Under the pieces are notes generated by a model. It was not told where the DNA came from. It worked only from the letters and a program-made list of their open reading frames with translations, and searched no databases. Both the position numbers and the translations under genes were made by a program. This document shows, one piece after another, positions 25,795 to 30,896 of a stretch of DNA of 32,854 bases. Origin of the DNA: Spirochaetia bacterium. GTDB lineage: Bacteria; Spirochaetota; Spirochaetia; CADAEX01. Where the stretch lies: contig JAFZIU010000103.1 of assembly GCA_017554185.1 (NCBI GenBank), positions 1 to 32,854 on the forward strand, in the 5' to 3' direction. The stretch's first letter is position 1. Each line of letters opens with the position of its first letter.

Positions 25795-25822
25795 TTGACA
25801 TATCCATTTTTTATGGTATATT
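25795..25822 (+). promoter_or_regulatory. promoter of the small twin-hairpin RNA
   Basis: TTGACA (25795-25800), a 16-bp spacer and TATATT (25817-25822) on the plus strand, with predicted start near 25829. The 43-bp interval between the Nudix start and this site is taken up by the two divergent promoters. Confidence 0.7.
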
Positions 25823-25828
25823 TTAAGT

Positions 25829-25885
25829 ATCATCCCAGTAGGCAAAGGCCTGCTGCCGCCTCACCAAAGGGTGGGGTTTTTTTTT
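25829..25885 (+). ncRNA. ~57-nt twin-hairpin RNA/leader upstream of the NYN gene
   Basis: Downstream of a strong promoter lie two hairpins: CAGTAGGC (25836-25843) with GCCTGCTG (25848-25855), and CCTCACC (25859-25865) with GGTGGGG (25870-25876). Both carry the same AAAG loop. The second is followed by nine T (25877-25885), so it is an intrinsic terminator. A ribosome site GGAGG follows five bases later for the NYN gene. It may be an attenuating leader, a riboswitch of a class I do not recognise, or an RNA antitoxin whose terminator sets the RNA-to-protein ratio. RNA boundaries are predicted only. Confidence 0.6.
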
Positions 25886-25900
25886 CTTTGGAGGTAAATT

Positions 25901-26494
25901 ATTACAAGAGTTGCTTTTTTTATTGATGGCTTTAATCTCTATCATAGCTTAAAGGAATATGCCCCTGATTGTAGGTGGCTAAACTTACGTAAGCTGTGTG
26001 AAACATATATTAATCCTCAGAAAGAATATATAACAGATATTTATTATTTTTCAGCCTTAGCAACTCACAAATCAGTTGATAATATTTATAAACACCAAAA
26101 ATATATTGCCCGCCTTAAAGCAGAGAATATTATTCCAATTCTTGGGAAATTCAAACGCAAAGATAAAATATGTCCAGTATGTAAAAGTGCATTTATTTCT
26201 CATGAAGAAAAGCAGACAGATGTAAATATTGCACTGAAAATTGTTGCAGAGGGAATTTTGGGGAAATATGACACAGGTATTCTTGTGTCAGGTGATACGG
26301 ATATGATTCCTGCAATACAGACAATTAAGATATTAGGTTTGCCTGTTAGAATAGGAGTTTTATTCCCACTAGGCAGAAAAACAAAAGAACTTGAAAACTA
26401 TGCTGATTTCTCTATAAAAATCAAAGAAAAAGAATTACGGGCAAGCCTTTTTGAAGCAAGTACCTCTCCCCAAGGTTGGGTTCCTGTTAAATAA
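25901..26494 (+). CDS. NYN domain (LabA/PIN-like) ribonuclease, apparent ATT start
   Basis: An intact frame of 197 residues. The N-terminal strand reads ITRVAFFIDGFNLYHS, the hallmark of NYN/LabA proteins; later acids are in KQTDVNIALKIV and SGDTDMIPAI, completing the metal-binding centre, and a CPVC motif sits near 85. These are PIN-like RNases. No ATG, GTG or TTG lies in frame before position 26258, deep in the domain, while a TAA at 25895 bars any upstream start. The only fitting initiation codons are ATT at 25898 or 25901; GGAGG (25890-25894) is six bases before 25901. It may be poorly expressed by design (AUU starts are known for infC), inactivated by a start mutation, or reflect a sequence error. 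Strongly AT-rich codon use marks it as accessory DNA. Confidence 0.75.
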   Translation: MTRVAFFIDGFNLYHSLKEYAPDCRWLNLRKLCETYINPQKEYITDIYYFSALATHKSVDNIYKHQKYIARLKAENIIPILGKFKRKDKICPVCKSAFISHEEKQTDVNIALKIVAEGILGKYDTGILVSGDTDMIPAIQTIKILGLPVRIGVLFPLGRKTKELENYADFSIKIKEKELRASLFEASTSPQGWVPVK

Positions 26495-26548
26495 GATTTT
26501 AAATGACAAAAAACTATCTTGTTTCTTATTAAGTCTGAACTTAGGTAA

Positions 26549-26584
26549 TTTAGCAGAGGTAGGATGCGGGCCTGCGATTTTTTT
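26549..26584 (+). terminator. hairpin + T-run element, copy 1
   Basis: Starts TTTAGCAGAGGTAGGA and ends CCTGCGA followed by seven T. GCAG and CTGC can pair. A near-identical element occurs at 27072-27108. Being 54 bp after the NYN stop, it probably ends that transcript. Confidence 0.5.
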
Positions 26585-26635
26585 GTGGTAAAAAATAGAT
26601 AAATGGATTATAATAAAAAAAGTTAGAGTTGTTCG

Positions 26636-27003: not shown

Positions 27004-27072
27004 TTCAAGCCCTTGGTTGAAAAATCTCCAAACTCTTGGTTGAAAAGTTGCCAAAGTCTGGAGTGAATATGT
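27004..27072. repeat. 23-bp imperfect tandem repeats, cluster 2 (three units)
   Basis: Units start at 27004, 27027 and 27050. Units 1 and 2 share CTTGGTTGAAAA; unit 3 reads GCCAAAGTCTGGAGTGAA, linking the cluster to the first. It is directly followed by the hairpin/T-run element at 27072 and then the large helicase-like gene. The 77 bp between clusters is AT-rich with no clear unit. Confidence 0.6.
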
Positions 27073-27108
27073 TTAGCAGGGGTAGGACTCTAACCTGCGA
27101 TTTTTTTT
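27072..27108 (+). terminator. hairpin + T-run element, copy 2
   Basis: TTTAGCAGGGGTAGGA leads into a GCAGG/CCTGC stem with an inner TAG/CTA pairing, followed by GA and eight T. It would end a transcript through the repeat clusters. It differs from copy 1 mainly in the 6-bp centre. Confidence 0.65.
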
Positions 27109-27144
27109 ATAGTTTTTTTTCAAAGGATGCGCTATTATTAAGAT

Positions 27145-29205
27145 ATGATTGATCGATACTTTTATGAAAATTCGTTTTCTGGATTTCTTTCTCAATCTAA
27201 TGAAGAAATTTTCGGTATATTATCGTCAAATAATAATTTCAATTTAGTTCTTCAGCAAAAAGATGCATGGCTTGAAGAAATACCAATAATGAAAGATCTT
27301 ATAAAACATTTTTCAGTAGGGAGGATTATATTTGAATATTCTATTCCTAGGTTAGGGAAAAGGATAGATGTAGTTTTATTGTTCTCGGGGATTGTTTTTG
27401 TTCTAGAATTTAAAATTGGAGAAAAATCTTTTTTAACAAGTGATGTGGAACAAGTTTGGGACTATGCTTTGGATCTTAAGAACTTTCATGAAGCAAGTCA
27501 TGATAAAATAATTATTCCAGTTTTAATTGCAACAGATGCAAAAGAACGTTCATATAAGTATTCACCCTGTCGATATGATGATAAAGTTTTTGAACCTATT
27601 TGTACTAACAATGCTAGTCTGTATTCAATTATTAGAACGATATTAGATTCAAATAGTAATGATAATGAAGATCTTTTGTCTTGGGCTAATAGTAGATATT
27701 CACCAACCCCAACAATAATTCAAGCGGCAAGTGCATTGTTTAATAATCATTCTGTTGAAGAAATAACACGGAAAGAAGCATCTGATGAAGATTTAATAAA
27801 AACAAATAAATTTGTTATTGATGTTATTACCAAGGCTAAAACGAATAAAGAAAAAGCTATTTGTTTTGTTACTGGTGTGCCTGGAGCCGGAAAAACTTTA
27901 GTTGGATTACAGATTGCTATCGAACAATTTGATAAAACTGAATTAGGGAAAAGAGATCTTGCAGTTTATCTTTCTGGAAATTATCCATTGGTAAGTGTAT
28001 TAACAGAATCTTTAGCAAGAGATAAAAAGAGGAAAGAAGAACAGAAGAATAAAAAGAAATATCCAATTACAAAGGCTAGACGGGATGTTCATTCGTTTAT
28101 TCAGATTGTGCATCACTATAGAAATACTTTTTTGGAAAAAATTAAAGATCCAATACAGAATGGAATAATAGAAATTGATGAGTCAAAAATTCCTAAATAT
28201 AAAGATGATGGCTATGCAGAAGTAGAGCATGTTGCAATATTTGATGAGGCCCAAAGGGCATGGACCCAAGAGCAATTGTCTAGTTGGTTGAAGAGGAAAA
28301 AACATATTTCAAATTTTCCATATTCCGAGCCTGAATTTCTCATTTGGTCTTTGGATCAGAGACCGGATTGGGCTGTTATCATTTGTCTTGTCGGCGGAGG
28401 GCAAGAGATTAATACTGGTGAAGCTGGAATTGCAGAATGGATTAATGCTCTTAATAATAAATTCGCTCATTGGAAAGTATATATTTCAAATCAATTAACA
28501 GAAAAAGAATATGCAGAAGGAAAAGTAAAACAATTAATATCTAAAAATATTAATGTGATAGAAAATCCGTATCTTCACTTATCTGTTTCAATGCGTTCTT
28601 TCCGCTCAGAAAAGTTATCGACATTTGTTCATGAATTATTGGATTTAAATATTAAACAAGCTCAATCGTTATATGGTGAAATAAAAAATGTTTATCCAAT
28701 AGTTTTGACACGTTCTTTAAATGCAGCAAAGAAATGGTTGCGTGAAAAAGCTCGTGGTTCCGAGCGGTATGGAATGATAGTGTCTTCACAAGCTTATCGT
28801 CTTAAACCTTTGGCAATAGATGTTCGTTTTAAACCAGATACTGTTCATTGGTTCTTGGATGATAAAAATGATATCCGTTCTTCATTATTTCTTGAAGATG
28901 TTGCAACAGAGTTCGATATTCAGGGTCTTGAATTGGATTGGTCTTGTATTATTTGGGATGGGGATTTTAGATACTCTAATTCTGGTTGGAAAAACTATTC
29001 CTTTACTGGTAGTAAATGGAAGAACATTAGGGCTAATGAAAGAAAAATCTACCAACTTAATGCTTATCGCGTTTTGCTAACTCGTGCTAGACGAGGTATG
29101 ATTATAGTTGTTCCAGAAGGTTCTGATGAAGATGAAACACGTCTGCCGGATTATTATGACCCAACTTATGAATATTTAAAGCAGATAGGTTTGGAAACAA
29201 TATGA
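27145..29205 (+). CDS. PD-(D/E)XK nuclease-like + DUF2075 (SF1 helicase-like) protein
   Basis: A 686-residue protein. The N-terminal part has D75 (RIDVVLL), E88-x-K90 (VFVLEFKIG) and Q103, the pattern of PD-(D/E)XK nucleases. A P-loop ATPase follows: Walker A TGVPGAGKTLVG (243-254), Walker B VAIFDEAQRAW (363-373), a sensor-like ICLVGGGQEINTGE near 415, and a C-terminal LNAYRVLLTRARRG near 640, as in superfamily 1 helicases and DUF2075/Schlafen-type ATPases. It probably acts on nucleic acid; antiviral defence is a reasonable guess from neighbours. Very AT-rich codons contrast with flanking core genes. A TATTAT ends 8 bp before the ATG and no good ribosome site is seen. Its stop overlaps the next gene (ATGA). 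Confidence 0.82.
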   Translation: MIDRYFYENSFSGFLSQSNEEIFGILSSNNNFNLVLQQKDAWLEEIPIMKDLIKHFSVGRIIFEYSIPRLGKRIDVVLLFSGIVFVLEFKIGEKSFLTSDVEQVWDYALDLKNFHEASHDKIIIPVLIATDAKERSYKYSPCRYDDKVFEPICTNNASLYSIIRTILDSNSNDNEDLLSWANSRYSPTPTIIQAASALFNNHSVEEITRKEASDEDLIKTNKFVIDVITKAKTNKEKAICFVTGVPGAGKTLVGLQIAIEQFDKTELGKRDLAVYLSGNYPLVSVLTESLARDKKRKEEQKNKKKYPITKARRDVHSFIQIVHHYRNTFLEKIKDPIQNGIIEIDESKIPKYKDDGYAEVEHVAIFDEAQRAWTQEQLSSWLKRKKHISNFPYSEPEFLIWSLDQRPDWAVIICLVGGGQEINTGEAGIAEWINALNNKFAHWKVYISNQLTEKEYAEGKVKQLISKNINVIENPYLHLSVSMRSFRSEKLSTFVHELLDLNIKQAQSLYGEIKNVYPIVLTRSLNAAKKWLREKARGSERYGMIVSSQAYRLKPLAIDVRFKPDTVHWFLDDKNDIRSSLFLEDVATEFDIQGLELDWSCIIWDGDFRYSNSGWKNYSFTGSKWKNIRANERKIYQLNAYRVLLTRARRGMIIVVPEGSDEDETRLPDYYDPTYEYLKQIGLETI

Positions 29206-29460: not shown

Positions 29461-29742
29461 TTACAGTGCTTCCACCTGCTCAGCAGTAAGCCCGGTGATT
29501 TTTACTATGGTTTCGACAGGGATGTTTTCGGCCTTCATGCCACGGGCTGCTGTTTCAAGGCCTTGCTGTTCACCAATCTCAACACCTTCTTCTAATCCTT
29601 TGTCATGAGCAGCAATGCGGAAGGCCTCTCTATCAACTTCTGCTTTATATCTCATCTCCTGTATTGCCCATTCTCTTTCATCATCACTTATGGTCATAAG
29701 AATCTCTCCTGCCTCCCGTATCCCTTCATCGCTGCTCATTAT
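29461..29742 (-). pseudogene. 5'-truncated Rpn/PD-(D/E)XK family gene (C-terminal fragment)
   Basis: A 93-codon frame (MSSDEGIREAGEILMTISDD onward) matches the last third of the intact gene at 30916-31785, ending in the identical KITGLTAEQVEAL. The nuclease domain is missing: the homology begins abruptly beside the AT-rich repeat. Compared with the intact copy it has an insertion (GVEIGEQQGLETAARG). A second ATG at 29697 (MTISDDERE) has GGAG eight bases before it, so a 78-residue product is possible. It could be a dead remnant or a working small form that binds full-length Rpn. Confidence 0.7.
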
Positions 29743-29747
29743 AACAC

Positions 29748-29801
29748 ATTTTGCTTCAATTTTTGAGAAAAAAAGTTGAAAAATTTTTAGGGAATAAAAA
29801 A
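29748..29801. repeat. island repeat, copy A (AT-rich block without hairpin)
   Basis: Starts ATTTTGCTTCAATTTTTGAG and ends GGGAATAAAAAA. Near-identical blocks occur at 30051, 30817 and, shorter, 31834. Here the usual hairpin is replaced by the TTGACA of the next promoter. Confidence 0.75.
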
Positions 29802-29802
29802 G

Positions 29803-29831
29803 TTGACATTTCATTTTGCGTGAAGTATATT
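29803..29831 (+). promoter_or_regulatory. near-consensus promoter of the ~88-nt RNA
   Basis: TTGACA (29803-29808), a 17-bp spacer and TATATT (29826-29831) on the plus strand; predicted start near 29838. Confidence 0.78.
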
Positions 29832-30059
29832 TTATTTAACTTGAGGGTTGTTACTCTCAGGGCCCGAAGGTGAAAGCTGTCGGGCAGCCATAAAGAGGTT
29901 CTCTTTTGAGAGCCTCTTTTCTTTTACTATATATGTTCCATAATTACCTTTATTATCTTCAATAACTACAACAAAACCATCATATGTGTTCATAACAGAA
30001 TTAAGCTTTCCGTTTATCCATTGGACTGCCTTATATACTGCAAAAATTTTAATTTTGCT
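29832..30059 (-). pseudogene. open gene fragment lacking a start, abutting the island repeat
   Basis: An open stretch of about 75 codons on the minus strand reads IFAVYKAVQWINGKLNSVMN then TYDGFVVVIEDNKGNYGTYI and runs to a TAA at 29832. The upstream side is a TGA inside the island repeat. The only ATG gives 53 residues. The first 50 residues look like real protein; the last 25 run through the small-RNA hairpins. It looks like a gene cut at its 5' end by the repeat, as the truncated Rpn was. Family not recognised. Confidence 0.35.
29838..29925 (+). ncRNA. unassigned ~88-nt small RNA
   Basis: Between a near-consensus promoter and a strong terminator. Predicted parts: a short TGAG/CTCA stem (29842-29859), a GCCCGA/TCGGGC stem (29862-29867 with 29880-29885), and an 11-bp terminator stem (29893-29903 with 29908-29918) with TTTT loop and trailing T-rich tract. 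No plus-strand gene follows, so it is not a leader. It overlaps, in antisense, the end of a gene fragment read on the other strand. I do not recognise its family. Confidence 0.6.
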
Positions 30060-30136
30060 TCAATTTTTGAGAAAAAAGTTTGAAAAATTTTAGTTGGGGA
30101 AAAATAAAAAAGCCTGTACCGTCTGATACTGGCTTC
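30051..30136. repeat. island repeat, copy B (AT-rich block + hairpin)
   Basis: AATTTTGCTTCAATTTTTGA through the hairpin AAGCCTGTA-CCGTCTGA-TACTGGCTT (one stem mismatch). On the minus strand the hairpin with its T run terminates the toxin-antitoxin operon. Confidence 0.78.
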
Positions 30137-30816: not shown

Positions 30817-30896
30817 AATTTTGCTTCAATTTTTGAGAAAAAAGTTTGAAATTATTTAGGGAATAAAAAAGCCTGTACCGTCTGATACAGGCTTCA
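30817..30896. repeat. island repeat, copy C (AT-rich block + hairpin)
   Basis: AATTTTGCTTCAATTTTTGA through GGGAATAAAAAA and the perfect AAGCCTGTA/TACAGGCTT hairpin. On the minus strand the hairpin ends the intact Rpn gene, and the block precedes the toxin gene. The 152-bp gap 30764-30915 is nearly filled by it. Confidence 0.8.

Follow-up and report, generated by a model that had tools for sequence, protein, structure and literature searches.

We examined a 32,854-nucleotide stretch of DNA from a member of the Spirochaetia (GTDB CADAEX01; contig JAFZIU010000103.1 of assembly GCA_017554185.1), which we call the window, and in particular a small RNA gene near its right end. This gene is about 88 nt long and lies on the plus strand (29838..29927, with the start inferred from the promoter). 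A preliminary description of the window had noticed its near-consensus promoter and the lack of a plus-strand gene behind it, and both observations hold. The promoter (29803..29831, plus strand) consists of TTGACA (29803-29808) and TATATT (29826-29831) with a 17-nt spacer, and matches the consensus at 11 of 12 positions; there are three such matches between 25000 and 32854, which is the part that was scanned. (No plus-strand gene follows, so the RNA is not the leader of such a gene.) The pattern TTGACAN{15,18}TATATTTT occurs nine times in the whole 1.6-Mb genome, and four of these occurrences stand at the head of copies of the same RNA; the pattern read backwards does not occur. The RNA is predicted to fold into two hairpins and a terminator (-44.4 kcal/mol, z -5.81), and none of 200 shuffled sequences was as stable. 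The two small stems of the preliminary description are recovered, but the terminator (29892..29927, plus strand) has 12 pairs rather than 11, followed by a U tract. The core hairpin (29862..29885, plus strand) has a GNRA-type loop (GAAA), and the 5' hairpin (29840..29861, plus strand) is found only in the window and in its closest homologue, in genome G006. We rejected the idea that the RNA encodes a small protein, as no small open reading frame (ORF) is common to the homologues. Rfam gave nothing convincing for the RNA with either gathering or relaxed thresholds, and only tRNAs elsewhere in the window; the best score for the RNA (BTnc231, 19.6 bits) is far from the gathering threshold of 80.4, so it does not belong to a known Rfam family.

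We then examined the opposite strand. The RNA had been described as an orphan, which overlooked a minus-strand reading frame: the entire RNA runs antisense to the 3' part of a remnant CdiA_C (PF18451-type) toxin gene (29832..30041, comprising the last 69 codons and the stop). The stop codon (29832-29834) lies at the inferred start site of the RNA. The remnant corresponds to the C-terminal third of the toxin, as judged from full-length relatives at five loci (L013, L002, L010, L043, and L049). Pfam's CdiA_C model matches L013 at 28.8 bits, above the cut-off of 26.6, while L002 (23.6), L010 (21.6), and the toxin of G003 (24.3) fall below it. We predict toxin activity from these matches. A stretch that is conserved in the alignment, NPD...(I)D.K, presumably resembles the PD-(D/E)XK nuclease motif. 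An AlphaFold model of the toxin (predicted local distance difference test, pLDDT, of 76) had no significant match in the PDB (HindIII ranked third, with E = 0.12), a sequence search of solved structures with the toxin gave nothing credible, and a pattern scan of viral contigs found no phage copies of the close toxins. Within the genus, the toxin ORFs stand alone (174-211 codons) and are not attached to a large delivery protein such as characterizes contact-dependent inhibition (CDI). CDI systems have an immunity protein gene directly behind the toxin; at two loci, viewed without a family search, the next ORF downstream is lipoprotein-like (L002) or longer (L013, where we take it to be DUF362-like). 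The RNA is not an orphan by origin; rather, its partner toxin gene is mostly lost in the window.

Upstream of the toxin remnant (30053..30069, minus strand) is a promoter-like box with the core CAAAAATTGAAGCAAAA in gene sense. Another copy (29749..29765, minus strand) lies upstream of a truncated Rpn-type gene (29461 to ~29739), and there are further copies at 30819 and 31836. The preliminary description had noted that the RNA begins where this second copy, its "island repeat", ends, and that the RNA might be part of a mobile cassette. We rejected an integron or mobile cassette repeat, as the box lies upstream of the core genes recA, ssb, and radC in several genomes. At up to two mismatches, TTTTGCTTCAATTTTTG has 21-32 matches in each of five of the seven genomes of the genus; the remaining two genomes have 3 and 4, and control matches number 1-2 per genome. 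In gene sense, the box is followed by a T tract and, 25 bases from where TTGAAGC starts, by a near-invariant GT, and start codons follow the box at a distance of a few tens of bases. The Pfam names of the genes downstream include SSB, RecA, RadC, a RecQ-type helicase, a double-zinc-ribbon phosphoribosyltransferase, Mg_chelatase, and Competence (we take the last three to be ComFC, ComM, and ComEC). The box also precedes type II toxin-antitoxin (TA) genes (RelB, RelE, HigB, HicA, HicB, Phd/YefM, BrnT, Gp49, PIN, and MazE-like), Rpn-type (PDDEXK_2) and ORF6N genes, and stand-alone genes with the phage polyvalent domains CdiA_C, LPD3, LPD13, and MuF_C. The box looks like the promoter of a candidate competence-type regulon in this uncultured rumen spirochaete genus. 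In the window, the Rpn-type gene (29461-29765) and the CdiA_C gene (29832-30069) are adjacent members of the regulon, and both lack the 5' part of their coding sequence while the box is still joined to the 3' end. These are two internal deletions of one kind.

The RNA was found at eight loci (seven distinct): the window, contigs C32, C102, and C106 of the same genome, genomes G003, G004, and G006, and a Treponema contig from water-buffalo rumen, whose RNA is identical to that of C102. (The named matches are metagenome-assembled genomes of spirochaetes from the forestomachs of yak, sheep, and buffalo.) The promoter, the GNRA hairpin, and the terminator are kept at all eight loci, with a loop of GAAA except for one GGAA, and both promoter hexamers and TATATTTT are invariant across the six loci at which they were compared. 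In alignment A5 (eight rows, seven distinct), 11 of the 22 base pairs have changed on both sides (5 of 10 in the core hairpin and 6 of 12 in the terminator), which none of 500 shuffles reached. Also, 93.4% of the cells are paired (100% in the terminator), versus 36-59% for slid structures. These compensatory changes support, by comparative analysis, the proposed structured RNA gene.

A full-length toxin frame accompanies the RNA at five of the eight loci (C32, C102, G003, G006, and L049). At the other three, the toxin is truncated (the window), shortened to 174 codons by the absence of internal stretches (G004), or missing (C106, where the RNA follows an ORF6N-type gene and has no matching toxin). 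At these three loci the RNA has outlasted the toxin, as might be expected of an antidote or of immunity that acts in trans, but also of simple decay in progress.

A covariance model of the RNA (R1) matches the window at 29858-29925 with 79.3 bits, the window sequence itself being part of the model. Outside the genus, matches that score 24-39 bits are mostly ordinary terminators that lack a promoter, so we claim only matches above 50 bits and three others: L079 (34.6 bits), which has its own promoter, and two that fall exactly on the expected convergent site, L066, from another family (20.3 bits, E = 0.0019), and L063, more weakly (13.6 bits, E = 0.12). The more distant copy in L079 (1450-1565) has a TTGATA-17-TATATT promoter and is convergent to a VapC-like gene, which already has a protein antitoxin (vapBC, judged by eye, at 1565-2262).

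Convergent promoters are common at the 3' ends of one class of regulon genes. We considered 100 complete regulon ORFs (from 109 fetched regions with 115 boxes; this set leaves out all of G001, three of the four boxes in G003, several places with two mismatches, and some copies at contig ends) and looked, up to 150 bases from the stop codon, for a convergent promoter that has no more than one mismatch. Such promoters were found for 17 ORFs: 14 of the 16 that we classified as polyvalent-type and 3 of the 84 others (Fisher test, 1.7e-12), where sister-genome orthologues are counted separately and the polyvalent-type calls are weak for L222 (CdiA_C, E = 0.09), L175 and L189 (LPD13, with E = 0.044 for L175 and nothing at 0.01 for L189), and L228 and L244 (the latter below the cut-off). 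With no mismatches allowed, the counts are 10 of 16 and 1 of 84, and that one (L185) is a copy of the window's RNA. Same-strand control promoters were found for 2 of the 100 ORFs. Every member is positive in six of the eight polyvalent sequence clusters, and a negative LPD13 gene (L190) has a convergent TTGACA-17-TACGAT followed by a long hairpin with seven U. None of the regulon's ORFs in type II TA clusters has a convergent promoter (these families normally have a protein partner). Nor do any of its five Rpn-type ORFs, which does not bear out the suggested co-occurrence of the RNA with Rpn genes. The RNA probably does regulate a toxin, as had been proposed, but the partner would be the CdiA_C gene that it overlaps and not the adjacent Rpn or HigBA genes.

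An automatic detector of a promoter plus a terminator was positive for 14 of the 100 ORFs; it missed L164, L222, L228, and L244, its positives at L203 and L214 look false, and its entries for L186 and L212 rest on a promoter-like match other than the one discussed here. (The L186 RNA has no visible U tract.) The shape of the RNA goes with the toxin family: CdiA_C has a hairpin and a terminator, LPD3 and MuF_C have a single long compound hairpin that runs out into the U tract, L222 has a short hairpin, and the LPD13-like pair has a T-arm-bearing RNA. The last of these (L123:1501-1632 and the 3' end of the L175 ORF) is promoter-driven, is antisense to the 3' end of a regulon gene of LPD13-like type, and has a tRNA-like T-arm hairpin and an odd anticodon-like loop. 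Neither ARAGORN nor Rfam called it a tRNA, and we therefore speak only of a T-arm-like hairpin. Two tandem orphan RNAs lie on contig C43 of the same genome as the window (L005:1453-1602). One resembles the partner RNA of LPD3, has no promoter of its own, and is positioned as another gene's terminator; the other resembles the partner RNA of L125 and L222. Also, in two sister genomes, different modules of toxin and RNA occupy the same site upstream of a lipoprotein-like gene: L042 (contig C32 of the window's genome) and L125 (contig C57 of G004).

The pattern extends beyond the genus. A search for PF18451 gave 24 places in 394 genomes of the class. We entered 25 CdiA_C ORFs, 21 from this search and 4 from another (the genus copies L279, L287, and L296 were left out); the end of the ORF is in view for 22 and out of view for 3. 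Of the 22, 14 have a convergent promoter at one mismatch or fewer, versus 2 of the 78 control ORFs taken from these loci (p = 7e-10; related loci were counted separately, so this and the next p value are optimistic). In three of the negatives (L274, L278, and L280), a clear RNA stands behind a promoter that has two mismatches; the other five have neither. For MuF_C, 27 of 30 loci were entered (L316, L320, and L321 have in-frame stops and were left out), and 12 of the 27 ends are out of view. Convergent promoters are present for 7 of the 12 stand-alone ORFs (under 350 codons) versus 4 of 50 control ORFs (p = 4e-4), with three of the seven being genus copies already counted, and for none of the three longer ORFs. 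CdiA_C subfamilies turn up again in different genera. The RNA of the subfamily from G179, G355, and G387 (F1) has both-sided changes in 4 of 23 pairs, and 15-47 of 500 shuffles reach its pairing or covariation measures. One RNA subfamily is found in both G073 and G300, from two families, with 89% column identity, and an RNA subfamily recurs at two loci of G391.

What does the RNA do? The constant features are the convergent orientation, the RNA's own promoter, its own terminator, and its position at the toxin's 3' end. On balance, we lean towards a cis-antisense RNA antitoxin for nuclease-type toxins, in the 3'-overlapping layout of RatA and SR6. The sequence shows a sigma-70-type promoter just past the toxin's stop codon that points back into the toxin gene and heads a short RNA (~50-90 nt), in which a conserved hairpin is followed by an intrinsic terminator. 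In the window's subfamily, this RNA is antisense to the last codons of the stand-alone CdiA_C gene, and its pairing with the mRNA is predicted from their complementarity in cis. The RNA would be constitutive, and the toxin gene would be switched on with the competence-type regulon. In the window, where the toxin gene is mostly lost, the orphan RNA could still silence a related toxin gene that is gained by DNA uptake. We rank antisense action first, direct binding to the toxin second, and transcriptional interference third because the layout is that of RatA, SR4, SR5, and SR6. Also, the RNA and its toxin gene are convergent in every case, as antisense action requires but direct binding does not.

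Several observations weigh against antisense action. First, members of a toxin subfamily from different genera share the hairpin to a greater degree than cis pairing calls for, which suits direct binding. Second, in many relatives the RNA lies mostly beyond the toxin's stop codon, so that pairing would need a long 3' untranslated region of the toxin mRNA. Third, at one mismatch the convergent promoter is missing from 8 of the 22 CdiA_C ORFs, from 5 of the 12 stand-alone MuF_C ORFs, and from the LPD3 gene L165, which has a weak match only. Fourth, copies of the RNA also adjoin an ORF6N gene (L011/L185) and a vapBC operon (L079). A further caveat is that the promoters were found by pattern, and that the search region and the pattern were chosen after the first cases had been seen.

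More tentatively, these cases could be parts of a Spirochaetia-wide modular RNA immunity. In such a scheme, stand-alone CdiA_C, MuF_C, LPD3, and LPD13 toxins would each have a dedicated antitoxin in the form of a folded RNA, which would evolve along with the toxin family and inhibit the toxin either directly or by pairing. The modules would be wired into the regulon in the rumen Treponema-like genomes, and orphan RNAs would provide immunity against incoming toxin genes.

The folded RNA, with its GNRA hairpin and terminator, might instead bind and inhibit the toxin directly, as a decoy for the nuclease and much as in type III systems. That the fold is kept within toxin families argues for a role of the RNA itself and keeps this explanation alive. 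It would account for RNA shapes that track the toxin family across bacterial families, for a GNRA loop at 8 of 8 loci, and for RNAs that persist without a matching toxin. It would also account for the F1 RNAs being more alike (identity 0.68-0.77) than the third codon positions of their toxins (0.47-0.54) or the flanks (0.44-0.52). But the RNA is always convergent, has no tandem repeats, and is never in an upstream co-directional repeat array, and in the window's subfamily it is perfectly complementary to the toxin mRNA in cis. We consider direct binding the main rival to antisense action, though rather unlikely.

The convergent promoter and terminator might suffice, by transcriptional interference with the toxin or by insulating neighbouring genes, with the RNA being inert. 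A strong promoter facing the gene is indeed the commonest shared feature, and the sequence outside the hairpins varies among the homologues. Yet interference has no need of the core hairpin, which is covarying and conserved, and loci that have lost the toxin still carry a promoter-terminator unit, so this seems improbable to us.

Finally, we compared the constraint on the RNA with the constraint on the protein in three pairs. In the body of the toxin, the third codon positions are the least conserved (identity 0.46-0.56), whereas in the 20 codons that overlap the RNA (a short tail), third-position identity is 0.65-0.75, and amino-acid identity falls from 0.54-0.65 in the body to 0.35-0.55. G003 reads the tail in a shifted frame, and its protein aligns poorly there; nonetheless, the RNA hairpins are kept. 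Relatives with long ORFs (G290, L056, and L070) have a similar protein tail in the RNA region, and therefore the RNA may have arisen inside an existing coding tail. It is scarcely credible that coding constraint on the toxin's C-terminus produced the RNA signals as a by-product, or that they arose by chance: although the same region encodes similar residues in L056 and L070, the codon-position pattern is reversed and protein identity is lower in the tail, the frame differs in G003, the promoter is mostly outside the coding sequence, the copy at C106 has no toxin, and the control counts in the regulon and class-wide tests argue against it.

Other features of the window lie to the left of these genes. 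At 25795-26494, a strong promoter, hairpins, and a terminator (25858-25877) are followed by an open frame that is NYN-type by eye; the frame has no ATG, GTG, or TTG start, and there is an ATT after GGAGG. This is possibly an attenuated leader. Two similar stretches (26540-26585 and 27065-27110), TTTAGCAG(A/G)GGTAGGA...CCTGCGATTTTTTT, flank a gene-poor stretch. An SLFN-g3 helicase protein (27145-29205) matches the candidate defence family PDC-S41 of PADLOC (E = 4e-270).

How does the module compare with known systems? By Pfam, the toxins described here have the same domains (CdiA_C, MuF_C, LPD3, and LPD13) as CDI or polymorphic toxins and phage polyvalent proteins. Solo versions of such toxin domains have been described (PMC5512222), and the immunity described for CDI and polymorphic toxins consists of proteins (PMC3482391); the word "antisense" does not occur in the searched text of these two papers. 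The titles and abstracts that we searched, whose scope excluded most subscription papers and preprints, contained no RNA partner of CdiA_C, MuF_C, LPD3, or LPD13 toxins. If such a partner recurs, it would explain why cells tolerate stand-alone copies of these toxins without an antitoxin gene. It would also tie the toxins to a putative competence regulon of rumen spirochaetes from an uncultured lineage.

RalR/RalA and SymE/SymR are type I systems with nuclease or SOS toxins, in which an antisense RNA restrains a non-membrane toxin; the pairing region and the toxin families appear to differ from those of the window's module. In ToxIN, a type III system, an RNA is the antitoxin of a nuclease, and type III systems have an upstream, co-directional array of tandem repeats. 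A short definition of type III is given in PMC11980606. Unlike ToxIN, the window's RNA is a single convergent RNA with its own promoter, and there is no tandem-repeat antitoxin upstream in an operon.

The layout is closest to the type I pairs txpA/RatA, bsrG/SR4, bsrE/SR5, and yonT/SR6, in which an antisense RNA overlaps the toxin gene's 3' end, as here. In Bacillus, RatA, SR4, SR5, and SR6 are described as binding the 3' ends of the toxin mRNAs and promoting their decay (PMC6562991; PMC5848175). As in type I systems, the RNA lies opposite the toxin gene in the window's subfamily (in many relatives it is mostly past the stop codon), and its own promoter and terminator can be recognized from the sequence. 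Type I toxins are small, usually hydrophobic peptides (yonT encodes 58 amino acids; PMC6563280), whereas the toxin ORFs here have 137-260 codons and phage polyvalent or CDI-type domains. Also, the RNAs here form structured families that track the toxin family, unlike those of the 3'-overlapping type I systems. If our proposal is correct, then antisense-type antitoxins would extend to nuclease-type phage effectors, and would include several new families of RNA.
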